NCBI RefSeq assembly: GCF_003150675.1
Contig: NZ_QGGB01000008.1
Coordinates: 1 to 64,000 of the forward strand
Length of the DNA: 64,000 nt
Source: Rhodohalobacter mucosus
GTDB taxonomy: Bacteria; Bacteroidota; Rhodothermia; Balneolales; Balneolaceae
Direction: 5' to 3'
The translations under genes were made by a program, and so were the position numbers. Numbering within the stretch: the stretch's first letter is position 1; each line of letters begins with the position of its first letter. Below, piece by piece: positions 48,096 to 52,616 of this stretch. The notes beneath the pieces are model-generated. The model did no database searches. It was not told the DNA's origin and worked only from the letters and a program-made list of their open reading frames with translations.

Positions 48096-48124
48096 GGCTC
48101 CCAGTCCACCAGTAAGCCAGCACC

Positions 48125-48472
48125 ATGCACATAGAACAATTCCGAAATTTCTGCCTCTCCTTTCCAGGCACCACCGAAGAATTTCCATTTGATGAGCGTA
48201 CCCTGGTATTCAAGGTAATCGGAAAAATGTTTGCCCTTTGCGATGTAGACCAGTTCGAAAGCATCAACCTGAAATGCGACCCCGTTCAAGCCCTGGAACT
48301 GCGCGAAACGTATCCGGGCACGGTTATTCCCGGTTATCACATGAACAAAAAACACTGGAATACGGTATTCATGCAGCACAATCTCCCCGATGATCTGATA
48401 ATGGAGTGGATCACCGATTCCTACAATCTCGTTGTGGAAGGACTGCCAAAAAAGGATAGGGAGAAGCTATAA
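48125..48472 (+). CDS. MmcQ/YjbR family protein
   Basis: The 115-residue product shows the YjbR pattern: FRNFCLSFPGTTEEFPFDERTLVFKVIGKMFALCD, then INLKCDPVQALELRETYPGTVIPGYHMNKKHWNTV and a terminal helix pair (LPDDLIMEWITDSYNLVVEGLPKKDR). The fold resembles a CyaY-like/DNA-binding scaffold, and the biological role is unsettled. Full length for the family. Its TAA stop overlaps the first base of the AGACAT repeat array. Confidence 0.92.
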   Translation: MHIEQFRNFCLSFPGTTEEFPFDERTLVFKVIGKMFALCDVDQFESINLKCDPVQALELRETYPGTVIPGYHMNKKHWNTVFMQHNLPDDLIMEWITDSYNLVVEGLPKKDREKL

Positions 48473-48814
48473 GACATGGCATGTCTGTTCAACCCATTAC
48501 CACCCATTAAGCTCTAAACCCCGATTCGATCCAAAACGCAGACACACCCTGAGTAGACATACCTTGTCTCCTTAACTGGACTTCGACACCCCCAGACATG
48601 GTATGTCTATTCAACCCATTACCACCTGTCAAGCTCTAACCCCCGATTCGATCCAAAACGCAGACACACCCTGAACAGACATACCTTGTCTCCTTAACTG
48701 GACTTCGACACCCCCAGACATGGTATGTCTGTTCAACTCAATACCGCCCAATCAAACTCTAACCCCTGATTCGATCCATATCTCAGAGCAACATCGAACA
48801 GACATACCATGTCT
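48472..48814. repeat. AGACAT array 1: three 122-bp units
   Basis: Three tandem units begin at 48472, 48594 and 48716 (exact 122-base period). Each starts with AGACATGGTATGTCT (first copy GGC for GGT) and, about 75-85 bases on, has AGACATACCATGTCT or a one-base variant, the inverse of the first. Each 15-mer is also a near-palindrome itself. The array fills the space between two convergent gene ends. Unit 3 has diverged in its interior but keeps the ends. Confidence 0.85.
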
Positions 48815-48860
48815 TGTCACCTGCACCATGTACCCTGAACCCTGCAACCTGCGCCCTACC
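48815..48860. repeat. ACCCTGxACCCTG-type micro-repeat
   Basis: CACCTGCACCATGTACCCTG and AACCCTGCAACCTGCGCCCT are overlapping degenerate ACCCTG(A/C) units between the AGACAT array and the stop codon of the next minus-strand gene. No function is claimed. Confidence 0.45.
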
Positions 48861-49733
48861 TCAAACATCACAAATCTCAATTCCCTGTCTTAAGGAAGCA
48901 ATCGCATTGCCGCGCGAAGGAATGAATTCCTGGCCTACATACCCCTCAAATCCGGTCTCTGCGATGGCCCGCATAATCGCCGGATAGTTCAGCTCCTGGG
49001 TCTCGTCAATCTCATTGCGGCCGGGCACGCCCCCTGTGTGATAGTGCGCAAAATACTCCCCGAACTCCCGGATCCGGCGGATGATATCGCCCTCCATGAT
49101 CTGCATGTGGTAGATATCATAGAGAAGTTTAAAGTTTTCGGATCCGAGCCGCCTGCACAGCTCCACACCCCACTCGGTACTGCTGGCCATATAACCGGGA
49201 TGATCCACCCTTGTATTGAACAGCTCCAGGCAAAGCACCACCCCGTGCCTCTCTGCTTCGCGAAGCACCGGTTTGATACCCTGTTCGAAATTTCGCATGC
49301 CTGTTTCGGGGTCCATGCCGTTGGCGTTTCCGCTGAAGCAGATCAGATTTGTGAACCCGGCATCCGCCACCTGGGGGATGACCCGGTTGTAGCTTTCGGC
49401 GAGTGACGAATGAAGTCCGGGGTCAATAAATCCGACATCGATTCCCGGTTCGGCCCCGTTGCACATGGGGCAATGGAGATCATATTCTTTAAGTGTGGCC
49501 CAGTCGCCCGGGCCCACCAGCTCCAGGCCTTTGATCCCGATCTCATTGCAGACCGCACAGAGTTCATCCAGCGAAAGAGACCCGTATGGCCAGCGGGTAA
49601 CGGAGTGGTTGATGTTACCTTTCAACTGAATGGGAGATAATCCTTTGGTTGATAATGATATCACGCCGGGCAGTGAAGCCGTACCTGCGGCCAGTCCCAT
49701 TTTTTTGATCGCTTCGCGTCTTGAAATTCCCAT
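48861..49733 (-). CDS. Hydroxypyruvate isomerase-like TIM-barrel protein, Tat-type start
   Basis: The 290-residue product opens MGISRREAIKKMGLAAGTASLPG, a twin-arginine type signal, so export in folded form is likely. The rest is a sugar-phosphate isomerase/epimerase TIM barrel: VTRWPYGSLSLDELCAVCNEIGIKGLEL, LCLELFNTRVDHPGYM with a metal-site Glu, LLYDIYHMQIMEGD and YVGQEFIPSRG with the second Glu. This set matches the hydroxypyruvate isomerase (Hyi) branch. The exact substrate is unproven. It lies 87 bases downstream of the MFS gene on the same strand, so co-transcription is possible. Confidence 0.9.
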   Translation of the reverse strand: MGISRREAIKKMGLAAGTASLPGVISLSTKGLSPIQLKGNINHSVTRWPYGSLSLDELCAVCNEIGIKGLELVGPGDWATLKEYDLHCPMCNGAEPGIDVGFIDPGLHSSLAESYNRVIPQVADAGFTNLICFSGNANGMDPETGMRNFEQGIKPVLREAERHGVVLCLELFNTRVDHPGYMASSTEWGVELCRRLGSENFKLLYDIYHMQIMEGDIIRRIREFGEYFAHYHTGGVPGRNEIDETQELNYPAIMRAIAETGFEGYVGQEFIPSRGNAIASLRQGIEICDV

Positions 49734-49820
49734 AACCTGTTCCGTTTCCGTCTCTGTTCATTTTAAAATGGTAAGTAAACAGGTTTCGCGGTGAAAATCT
49801 ACTGAAGCATCCTTCGATTT

Positions 49821-51074
49821 CTATCCGGATTTTTTCATCAGTCCAAATCCGATCCAGATTGTAGCGGAGACAATCAGTGCGGTAGCTACAAACGGAAGTC
49901 CAAATGTTATGGCAAACAGGGCACCTCCCCACGTGGGACCAATCATCCTGCCCAAACCCGATAACCCCTGTGAAGCACCCATCACCGCTCCCACATTGTC
50001 GTCGTTAGCTTCCTTCGAGATCAGGCTTGTGATGGTTGGCGTATTCAGGCTCTTGCCCGCAGCCATCAGGCCCAGGAACAGGGCCAGCGTAAGCATGCTG
50101 TTTGCGAAAGGAATGAGCCCAAGCCCGATCACCATCATCACGTTCCCGGCAATGAACAGCTTCTCTTCTGAAAAGACGTTAGTCAGTGGTTTGATCAGGA
50201 ATCCCTGCACCACAACCGCAATGATCCCGATGTAGAAGAACTGGACGCCCACCTGTTCGGCGGTCATCCCCAGTTCAGACTCCGCAAACAGCGGAAATGC
50301 GCTGTAAAGACTCGACTCACCGAATGAAAGAAGAAAAAAACCGACGATGAGCGGAATCAGAAATCCACGCGCCGACTGCCCTTTCTGTTCCGATAACAGC
50401 CTCCAGAATCGCGGGGTAAACACACTGGGGCGCCGGAACTCACCCGTTCGCTCTTTGGTCGTATCAACCGTTTCAGGCAGCTTGAACAGCACCATCAGAA
50501 AGCTGCAAAAAGAGAGAAAAGCCGCAAAAAAACCGGGTAGAGCAAACCGGTTTGTGCTCATCCACTCTGCAAATTCCGTAAATCCAATGCTGGCAACAAA
50601 TTCATGAAAAGCGGGGTGTATCAAACCAGTGGCGGTTGCCGGACCGATGACAAAACCGATCCCGAAAGCAGCCCCGATCAGTCCCATACCCCTGGCGCGG
50701 TTCTCGCTGTCGGTGACGTCGGCGATATAGGCTTGGGCTGTGGAGATATTTCCCCCCATCATCCCGGCTACGATACGTGACAAAAACAGAACGCCCACCG
50801 ATTCTGCCAGTCCGAATATAATGTACGCAATGACTGCCCCAAAGGTACTCAACAGCATGATGGGGCGCCGGCCGATGCGATCGCTCCAGCTCCCCCAGAT
50901 GGGAGAAAAAATCAGCTGCATAAATGAATAGACGCTGTACAGCAACCCGATGGTCACGGCCGATGCGGCAAACTCCTTAGCGTAAAAGGGAAGCAGCGGC
51001 AGCACGATTCCGAAACCTAGGAGATCGATCATCACCACCAAAAAAACAGTTGCCAGGGCAGGTTTATTCATCAA
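49821..51074 (-). CDS. MFS transporter, TCR/Tet-like exporter
   Basis: The 417-residue product has 12 membrane helices and major-facilitator motifs: IDLLGFGIVLPLLPFYA in helix 1 (drug:proton antiporter type), GSWSDRIGRRPIML (motif A) in the first loop and GPATATGLI (motif C-like) in helix 5. The length and motifs fit the TCR/Tet and MdtG group of drug-type exporters. The substrate cannot be named. It could instead export a metabolite linked to the following isomerase-like gene. Confidence 0.92.
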   Translation of the reverse strand: MMNKPALATVFLVVMIDLLGFGIVLPLLPFYAKEFAASAVTIGLLYSVYSFMQLIFSPIWGSWSDRIGRRPIMLLSTFGAVIAYIIFGLAESVGVLFLSRIVAGMMGGNISTAQAYIADVTDSENRARGMGLIGAAFGIGFVIGPATATGLIHPAFHEFVASIGFTEFAEWMSTNRFALPGFFAAFLSFCSFLMVLFKLPETVDTTKERTGEFRRPSVFTPRFWRLLSEQKGQSARGFLIPLIVGFFLLSFGESSLYSAFPLFAESELGMTAEQVGVQFFYIGIIAVVVQGFLIKPLTNVFSEEKLFIAGNVMMVIGLGLIPFANSMLTLALFLGLMAAGKSLNTPTITSLISKEANDDNVGAVMGASQGLSGLGRMIGPTWGGALFAITFGLPFVATALIVSATIWIGFGLMKKSG

Positions 51075-51169
51075 ATGTATTGGATTAAAGACCCGACAAG
51101 ATAGAGCCTTTGAATGTACATTTCATGAAGAAGATGGAATACAGTTATCCAGACGTCCCAGACATTTCC

Positions 51170-51305
51170 AGACATGGTATGTCTGTTCAACACAAAACCA
51201 CCGATCTGACTCTAATCCCCGATTCGATACGAAACGCAGCATATCACAACACAGACATACCATGTCTCCTTAACCCGATCTCTACATCCCAGACATAGTA
51301 TGCCT
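51170..51305. repeat. AGACAT array 2: one full unit plus start of a second
   Basis: AGACATGGTATGTCT (51170-51184) and AGACATACCATGTCT (51253-51267) bound one full unit; AGACATAGTATGCCT (51291-51305) begins a second, 121 bases after the first. The interior shares CCCCGATTCGAT and CTCCTTAAC with array 1. The array lies between the MFS start and the hemL stop codon and ends 6 bases before hemL. Confidence 0.85.
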
Positions 51306-51311
51306 CCTCAA

Positions 51312-52616
51312 CTACGACATCACTTTCGCCTTCGCCACCTCAAGGGCTTCATCCGCAGCGGTCAGGGTCGCATCCAGCATCTCATAGGTAAGTGAATTGG
51401 CCAGAAACCAGCTTTCAAAAGGCGATGGTGGCAGGTATACACCCCGATTCAGCATTTCATGAAAGAAGATCCTGAACAGCTCCTGGTTCGTGGTGTTCGC
51501 TGTGCTAAAGTTTGTGACCGTTTCAGAAGTGAAGAAAATACTGGTCATTGAACCTACACGATGCATATCGTAATCAATTTCATGCTCATTGAGCAACAAA
51601 CGCATCCGTTTTTCCAGGTATTCGGTCTTTTCCTCCAGTTCCACATAATATTCAGGATGATTCTCAAGTGCTGACAACTGCGCAAGACCTGCACTCATAG
51701 CCAGCGGATTGCCTGAAAGCGTGCCCGCCTGGTAAACTGGACCCATTGGAGCCACCACATCCATGATATCTTTTTTGCCGCCGAAAGCTCCCACCGGCAG
51801 GCCGCCGCCAATAATTTTTCCGAAAGTAACCAGGTCGGCCCATACATCAAATCGCTCCTGGGCGCCGCCTCTTGCCAAACGAAAACCGGTCATTACTTCA
51901 TCAAATATCAGAACCGCTTCATGCCGGTTGCAAAGCTCTCTGAGGCCTTCCAGAAAACCCGGCTCCGGCGGAATACAGCCCATATTACCCGCAACGGGCT
52001 CCAGGATGATGGCGGCCACATCACCCTTGTTCTCTTTAAGCAGCTTCTCAACGCTTTCCAGGTTGTTATAATCCGCATTCAGAGTATCCTTTGCGGTTCC
52101 TTTCGTGACACCCGGACTGCTCGGCTGACCCAAAGTGAGTGCCCCGCTTCCGGCCTTGATCAGAAAGGCATCGCCGTGCCCGTGATAGTTCCCCTCAAAC
52201 TTGATGATTTTCTCCTTGCCTGTATATCCACGGGCTACCCGGATGGCGCTCATGCACGCCTCGGTACCCGAATTCACCATCCGCACCTTCTCCACATTTG
52301 GAACCATGCGCTGCACCAGCTCCGCCATGTTGATCTCAATTTCCGTTGGAGCCCCAAATGATGTGGAATTGAATGATGCATCCTGAACGGCTTTTACCAC
52401 CGGCGGATAGGCATGCCCCAGAATCATCGGCCCCCAGGAACCCACATAGTCGATATACTCATTGCCGTCCTCATCTGTAATTATCGATCCCTTCGCCTTA
52501 TTGAAGAAAACCGGAATGCCTCCAACCGATTTAAAAGCCCTGGCCGGAGAGTTCACCCCGCCGGGAATAAATTGCTGTGCCCTGTTGAAAAGAAATTCGC
52601 TTTTATTGAGAAGCAT
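51312..52616 (-). CDS. hemL: Glutamate-1-semialdehyde 2,1-aminomutase
   Basis: The 434-residue product is full length for HemL, the PLP enzyme that converts glutamate-1-semialdehyde into 5-aminolevulinate in the C5 haem pathway. It shows the class III aminotransferase features: [17 protein letters not shown] for cofactor phosphate, [33 protein letters not shown], and the PLP lysine (Lys267) in [18 protein letters not shown]. The product feeds HemB, encoded in the same cluster. It starts 47 bases after htpX on the same strand, so it is probably the last gene of a chaN-like/hemB/htpX/hemL transcript. Confidence 0.96.

Follow-up and report, generated by a model that had tools for sequence, protein, structure and literature searches.

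Bioinformatics analysis of a 64,000-nt stretch of the Rhodohalobacter mucosus genome (hereafter, the window) revealed a family of inverted-repeat elements of about 98 nt. With a probability of about 0.85, these are REPIN-like non-autonomous mobile elements, moved by a cognate REP-associated tyrosine transposase (RAYT) that is present among the elements in some species. Each element consists of the 15-mer AGACATGGTATGTCT, a core of ~67–68 nt, and the inverse of the 15-mer. Read in this way, the elements would represent a tag-less version of the REPIN–RAYT system in Balneolaceae, in which the ends and the length, and not the core, are kept across dozens of unlike copies and in two genera. The conserved features (end sequence, end-to-end pairing and spacing) can thereby be told apart from the free ones, and the elements offer a substrate on which target measurement by a RAYT can be tested.

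Elements in the Window

The window contains four full elements and one lone end, which are found in two groups next to the following genes:

48125..48472, + strand, yjbR-family gene (PF04237), stop codon overlapping Element 1
48472..48569, Element 1, 98 nt, with ends at 48472–48486 and (inverted) 48555–48569 and the core between them
48570..48593, 24-nt spacer between Elements 1 and 2, second copy at 48692–48715
48594..48691, Element 2, 98 nt, 92% identical to Element 1
48716..48814, Element 3, 99 nt, ends matching over 19 bp with no mismatches
51170..51267, Element 4, 98 nt, flanked by the start of an MFS gene and the stop of hemL
51291..51305, lone end AGACATAGTATGCCT, probably the remnant of one more unit
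51312..52616, − strand, hemL-like gene, class III aminotransferase (PF00202), stop adjoining the second element group

A preliminary description of this DNA had proposed a unit of ~122 bases, repeated three times. Units do begin at 48472, 48594, and 48716, but the real unit is the inverted-repeat element of 97–99 nt: the 122-nt period is made up of an element and the 24-nt spacer and is a property of the array. The third array unit (48716) lacks the repeated spacer. The same description placed the first unit on the yjbR stop codon and a further copy at 51170–51305 near hemL, and both placements were confirmed. The yjbR ORF shares A48472, the final base of its TAA, with Element 1, while the second group comprises the element at 51170 and the lone end, six bases from the hemL ORF.

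With up to three mismatches allowed, the 15-mer has 17 matches in the window, near-palindromes being scored on both strands; shuffled sequences gave a mean of 1.24. A chance origin of the repeats was rejected, as no shuffle exceeded four matches and the reversed 15-mer is absent from the genome.

Distribution in the Genome and in Related Bacteria

The genome-wide search suggested in the preliminary description was performed, and other copies were indeed found: the genome (3.9 Mb) contains 15 exact copies of the 15-mer and none of the reversed control, and 12 full elements of 97–99 nt are located at nine places. Lone ends include those at C2:125539, C8:51291, and C9:107152. Clearly similar cores are shared, within this genome, only by the four copies of the window.

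A wider collection was made from GTDB r220 contigs using an exact gapped pattern with gaps of 56–80 nt, a search that passes over more diverged ends and other lengths. It returned 77 stretches, labelled Balneolaceae or Rhodohalobacter apart from four, which are labelled as Chitinophagaceae or Bacteroidetes MAGs. Full elements are present in 18 of the 28 genomes of the genus. In total, 172 elements (168 unique) were collected; the statistics given below for length, ends, cores, and placement are based on the loci of the window's own genome and those found by the gapped pattern, the second-genus genome G099 not being included. Unit number, for which a comparison of strains had been suggested, was compared between species and was found to differ: one unit in RECI vs. 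two in PWLN and SKKO, and one in REDS vs. two in JAFIES. In one array (G024:C67:8665–9053), the ends recur every ~47 nt rather than every ~82 nt, which corresponds to half-length units.

Carriage by phages was rejected, as viral contigs contained no full elements, and so was carriage by plasmids, as the array that was searched had no plasmid match. A known RNA family was rejected as well, since no Rfam family matched the element. Among titles and the beginnings of abstracts in the open-access literature on REPIN/RAYT systems or Balneolaceae repeats, no description of these elements was found.

Length, Ends and Core

The length of the elements is nearly fixed: 170 of 172 measure 94–99 nt and have inverted ends. 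From start to start, the two ends are separated by 79–84 nt, mostly by 81–83 nt (mode, 82). The cores, on the other hand, fall into 56 groups at 62% identity among the 166 unique elements of 94–99 nt (which are not mutually independent), and 38 of these groups have a single member; shuffled cores show a mean identity of 0.39 and a 99.9th percentile of 0.50.

Across the family, the ends read ARACATGGTATNTCT. The variable positions 2, 12, and 14 define five main end types, and in 166 of 172 elements the two ends are of one type. End-to-end pairing at these positions amounts to 0.98, 0.99, and 0.99, compared with 0.54, 0.50, and 0.85 for shuffled partners, and from position ~18 onward it is no higher than chance. 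For the 33 sequences of the largest core family, the consensus fold consists of a 17-bp stem alone, with changes on both sides at two pairs and no conserved structure in the loop. At position 2, both the A type and the G type are present in this family and in one other, and in the largest family they are still matched at both ends. A long hairpin continuing through the core was looked for and not found. The sequence at 48716–48815 folds at −31 kcal/mol (z, −7.9 vs. shuffles), and folding and end comparison together agree with the mutual pairing of the two 15-mers that had been proposed. Of the further proposal that each 15-mer is itself a near-palindrome, little is retained at the family level: positions 2/14 or 4/12 are unpaired in the commonest end types, so that no local hairpin of the ends is conserved. 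This weakens the suggested alternative stems, the end-to-end stem being the conserved one. No conserved GTAG/CGTC tag was found next to the ends in 205 outer flanks.

The core is not entirely free: 30 of the 56 core groups have a degenerate central box no more than 5 nt from the midpoint, compared with 9.7 (maximum, 17) in shuffles, for a motif that was chosen after inspection of the data; a core search made independently of the box also exceeded shuffles (7.45 vs. at most 4.89 bits).

Such regular spacing would also be expected if the elements formed a double-stranded binding lattice for a chromosomal protein, in which ~41 bp, or four helical turns, would separate the ends from the central box and the array spacing would continue the rhythm. 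The narrow range of end distances and the midpoint position of the box are consistent with this, as are the neighbouring elements' ends in arrays, which are mostly 37–42 nt apart. Array spacings of 26–29 and 43–47 nt also occur, however, the palindromy of the ends is not conserved in the commonest types, and the sole candidate protein is the RAYT. A binding lattice is thus considered improbable, and REPIN-like mobile elements remain the preferred reading.

RAYT-like Transposase Beside the Elements

A protein of 195–196 aa is encoded between elements in loci L084 and L080. P0001 and P0002, sequences of this RAYT, both match the NCBIfam model of REP-associated tyrosine transposases, NF047646 (47.1 and 57.4 bits; E-values, 2.1 × 10−12 and 1.4 × 10−15), at scores below the 80-bit cut-off of the model. 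The HUH motif NHFHF and the tyrosine motif YIHRNP are invariant in four aligned proteins. At an E-value of 0.001, Pfam assigned no family to the RAYTs, and there was no Pfam Y1_Tnp match above the cut-off; no PHROGs family was matched, and a PDB sequence search had no hits. In a phage search, P0001 matched one place (26% identity), and its single-sequence structure prediction gave no reliable fold (pLDDT, 39.8).

RAYTs of this close clade are present in five genomes of the genus (G021, G024, G015, G017, and G002), and they always adjoin elements. The elements are found on both sides of the gene in the first four, one of which (G017) has a broken reading frame; in G002, the gene is cut by the contig end and the elements occupy its one available side. 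Each flanking element is a full two-ended unit of 97–101 nt. In G099, which belongs to another genus and has 23 elements in its genome, a RAYT 54% identical to P0002 is preceded by six elements and followed by five, with the ends 84–86 nt apart from start to start. Thus, the close-clade RAYT adjoins elements in all six genomes in which it was found. By comparison, 24 loci of the same survey whose best match is at most ~42% identical carry no element, except for one weak pair in L179, situated more than 1 kb away. The elements are absent from nine further genomes of the family, four of which have RAYTs of 44–48% identity.

Within the genus, the close RAYT is found in 5 of the 18 element-bearing genomes and is absent from the other 13. 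The joint presence of RAYT and elements is therefore weak evidence, and adjacency is the stronger. No close RAYT was found in the genome of the window (best match, 31% identity; none at an E-value of 10−25 with P0002). Its copies may therefore have been orphaned, or may be served by a different Y1 protein; this genome has nine Y1_Tnp matches. Nearly all RAYT-adjacent elements have T at position 12, whereas the elements of the window have G, an end type that therefore has no matched RAYT. One locus (L142) includes an additional group of G-type elements on one side.

Next to their RAYTs, G089 and G006 have other inverted 15-nt pairs, 81–83 nt apart (one pair in each genome), a hint that the geometry may outlive the end sequence across RAYT lineages. 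Tentatively, the transposase might read nothing but the paired ends and their spacing, aided weakly by the central box, so that nearly any core of ~67 nt could be carried as free cargo. The same geometry (15-nt ends ~82 nt apart) with other ends in other RAYT lineages is included in this proposal, which we regard as possible yet somewhat doubtful.

Evidence for Movement

Pairs of arrays with alike cores within one genome (n = 85) were compared in their outer flanks. The median flank identities were 0.36 and 0.34, close to the 0.32 of an unrelated-flank control, and unrelated flanks around alike cores indicate a mobile unit bounded exactly by the 15-mers. In some of the best-matching pairs one flank is common to both arrays, a sign of local duplication. 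In 16 comparisons of presumed orthologous sites, the ends are 0.83–1.00 identical and the cores 0.44–0.97. No clean pair of filled and empty sites was found among the orthologous loci, the sites compared being too diverged; one site without the element carries other sequence instead. Copies across the genome and genus, the exact boundaries of dispersed copies and the RAYT among elements in relatives support the mobile repeats offered as one option in the preliminary description.

Terminal inverted repeats are typical of miniature inverted-repeat transposable elements (MITEs), and they are found here at both ends. The elements could accordingly be MITEs moved by a double-strand transposase, of the DDE type or other, with the RAYT close by accident; a different transposase-like ORF does lie between two arrays in L126. 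This ORF was met at one locus only, however, no target duplication was visible in 67 single units, and the close-clade RAYT adjoins elements in 6/6 genomes, a second genus included. A MITE origin is thus regarded as very improbable.

For REPIN-like elements, transposition is what we infer from these data, and the action of this RAYT on these ends is suggested by its position. The putative mechanism is as follows. In single-stranded DNA (the presumed route), the two ends would pair into a 15–17-bp stem; the RAYT would recognise this folded end, then cut and rejoin it, leaving no target duplication. An enzyme that reads the ends and the total length would hold both constant, while the core would drift save for the degenerate central box. 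Copies would persist chiefly where they closely follow a stop codon, and arrays would expand by tandem duplication of element and spacer. The window's copies are presumably immobile now, since their genome has no close RAYT.

At one apparently shared site (L092:1949–2045, L136:2852–2947, and L142:1154–1250), one species carries a core that matches the cores of the other species in reverse-complement form (0.58 and 0.76), which would fit an inversion or a replacement of the element.

Placement Relative to Genes

The arrays are largely extragenic, with 4 of 104 overlapping an ORF of at least 100 aa. For the analysis of placement, ORFs of at least 100 aa were called mechanically, the 73 of 104 arrays with both neighbours were used, and random placement was obtained by shifting each array within its own gap (2000 trials). 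Stop codons facing an array lay within 15 nt of it in 39 of 96 cases, compared with a random mean of 21.4 and a maximum of 33, whereas facing start codons did so in 2 of 50 cases (5.4 at random). In co-directional gaps, the array is closer to the stop in 31 of 40 cases, and gaps between convergent genes hold 28 of the 73 arrays; of the 234 gaps without an array at these loci, 32 are convergent. The suggested preference for gene ends is thus supported, and placement relative to genes is not random.

This bias is shared by another explanation, in which the elements act at the 3' end of RNA: the transcribed 15–20-bp stem would protect, process, or terminate the mRNA of the preceding gene and be kept by selection. 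Besides the proximity to stops and the enrichment between convergent genes, this is favoured by stems that fold better than shuffles, as at 48716–48815, and by the hemL 3' side, where 10 of 20 genomes have element ends no more than 420 nt away (20 of 23 hits were used; L233 (G020), L237 (G010), and L238 (G026), with the hit at or near a contig end, were excluded). At the yjbR 3' side, by contrast, ends are found in just 3 of 17 genomes. A scan for intrinsic terminators (short G+C-rich hairpin followed by a T run) gave three sites in 48100–51500, none of them at the elements; an intrinsic terminator was rejected, and the proposed role in termination or 3'-end processing gains no support here. 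In addition, the loop has no conserved structure, no Rfam family is matched, and the adjacency to a transposase and the exact dispersed copies are left unexplained. The same bias could arise from avoidance of promoters and coding DNA. The placement fits either insertion tolerated where it is least harmful or a 3'-end role, and the data do not separate the two. A 3'-end role as the primary explanation is considered unlikely, although it is compatible with mobility and the two can coexist.

Comparison with Known Systems

The best-known REPIN–RAYT systems have GTAG-tagged repeats and occur mostly in Proteobacteria. The present elements share with them inverted repeats at a fixed distance, a RAYT flanked by copies in six genomes (the window's own not being among these), and extragenic dispersal. 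As outlined by Bertels and Rainey (2011, PMC3116915), REPINs have two inverted ends at 71 or 110 bp; spacer length seems important and is emphasised there together with the pairing of the ends, and in this respect the present elements resemble REPINs. Inverted conserved ends, a fixed distance, a less conserved spacer, an extragenic position, tandem clusters, and a nearby RAYT are all common to that outline and to the present elements. Unlike the REPINs of that outline, the ends here are not GTAG-type REPs, and 12 copies is a low copy number; REPIN spacers are described there as a long hairpin, whereas pairing here ends at ~17 bp. The inverted REP pairs of Escherichia coli BIMEs, with a variable linker and often in tandem copies, are similar in the account of PMC8266576, but the GTAG and the bulged local hairpin of the E. 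coli REPs given there are not conserved in the Balneolaceae elements. The latter thus depart from canonical REPs in two defining points, the tag and the local hairpin.

Among the reports considered, and as far as their text describes them, those that come closest describe the atypical structures next to RAYTs of subclass 2.6 (PMC6006769) and the TIRtrons (PMC3733652). TnpA subclass 2.6 of Bacteroidetes is presented as RAYT-linked, with "atypical secondary structures", a median length of 179 aa, and the motifs NH[LIV]H, WQ, and YIH[QN]NP (PMC6006769). The protein found here is an HUH protein of similar size with NHxH and YIHxNP motifs, and in both cases non-GTAG structures flank the gene and have copies elsewhere in the genome; it differs in having NHFH, YIHRNP, and FE at the presumed place of WQ. 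TIRtrons, with their TIRYT transposases, likewise combine RAYT-like genes with flanking inverted repeats unrelated to GTAG REPs, some of which form genomic dimers (PMC3733652). As described there, the TIRs bracket the gene, whereas here every flanking copy is a full two-ended element of 97–101 nt.

Other Repeats Next to Transposase Genes

Several further repeats were observed near transposase genes. In G006 (L173:467–527 and 1187–1330), several copies of the palindrome AGACTTCCGAAGTCT are found around a RAYT 36% identical to P0002, and one pair of them is ~81 nt apart. In the window's genome, another Y1 transposase gene (L052; G000:C8, 81138–81470, beyond the window) has repeats on both sides that contain the perfect palindrome GAGGGTTTCAACCCTC, three before the gene and three after it. 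With at most one mismatch, this palindrome has 12 copies in the genome, none of them in the window. A third Y1 transposase gene (G000:C3, 9870–10214) is bracketed by a 29-nt inverted repeat with 86% complementarity (L050:1400–1428 and 2022–2050). The genome may thus host several distinct RAYT–repeat systems. The ORF between two element arrays in L126 (3943–5241) encodes 432 aa and was found at this one locus; it resembles an IS110-type transposase, perhaps that of an insertion sequence inserted in an array.
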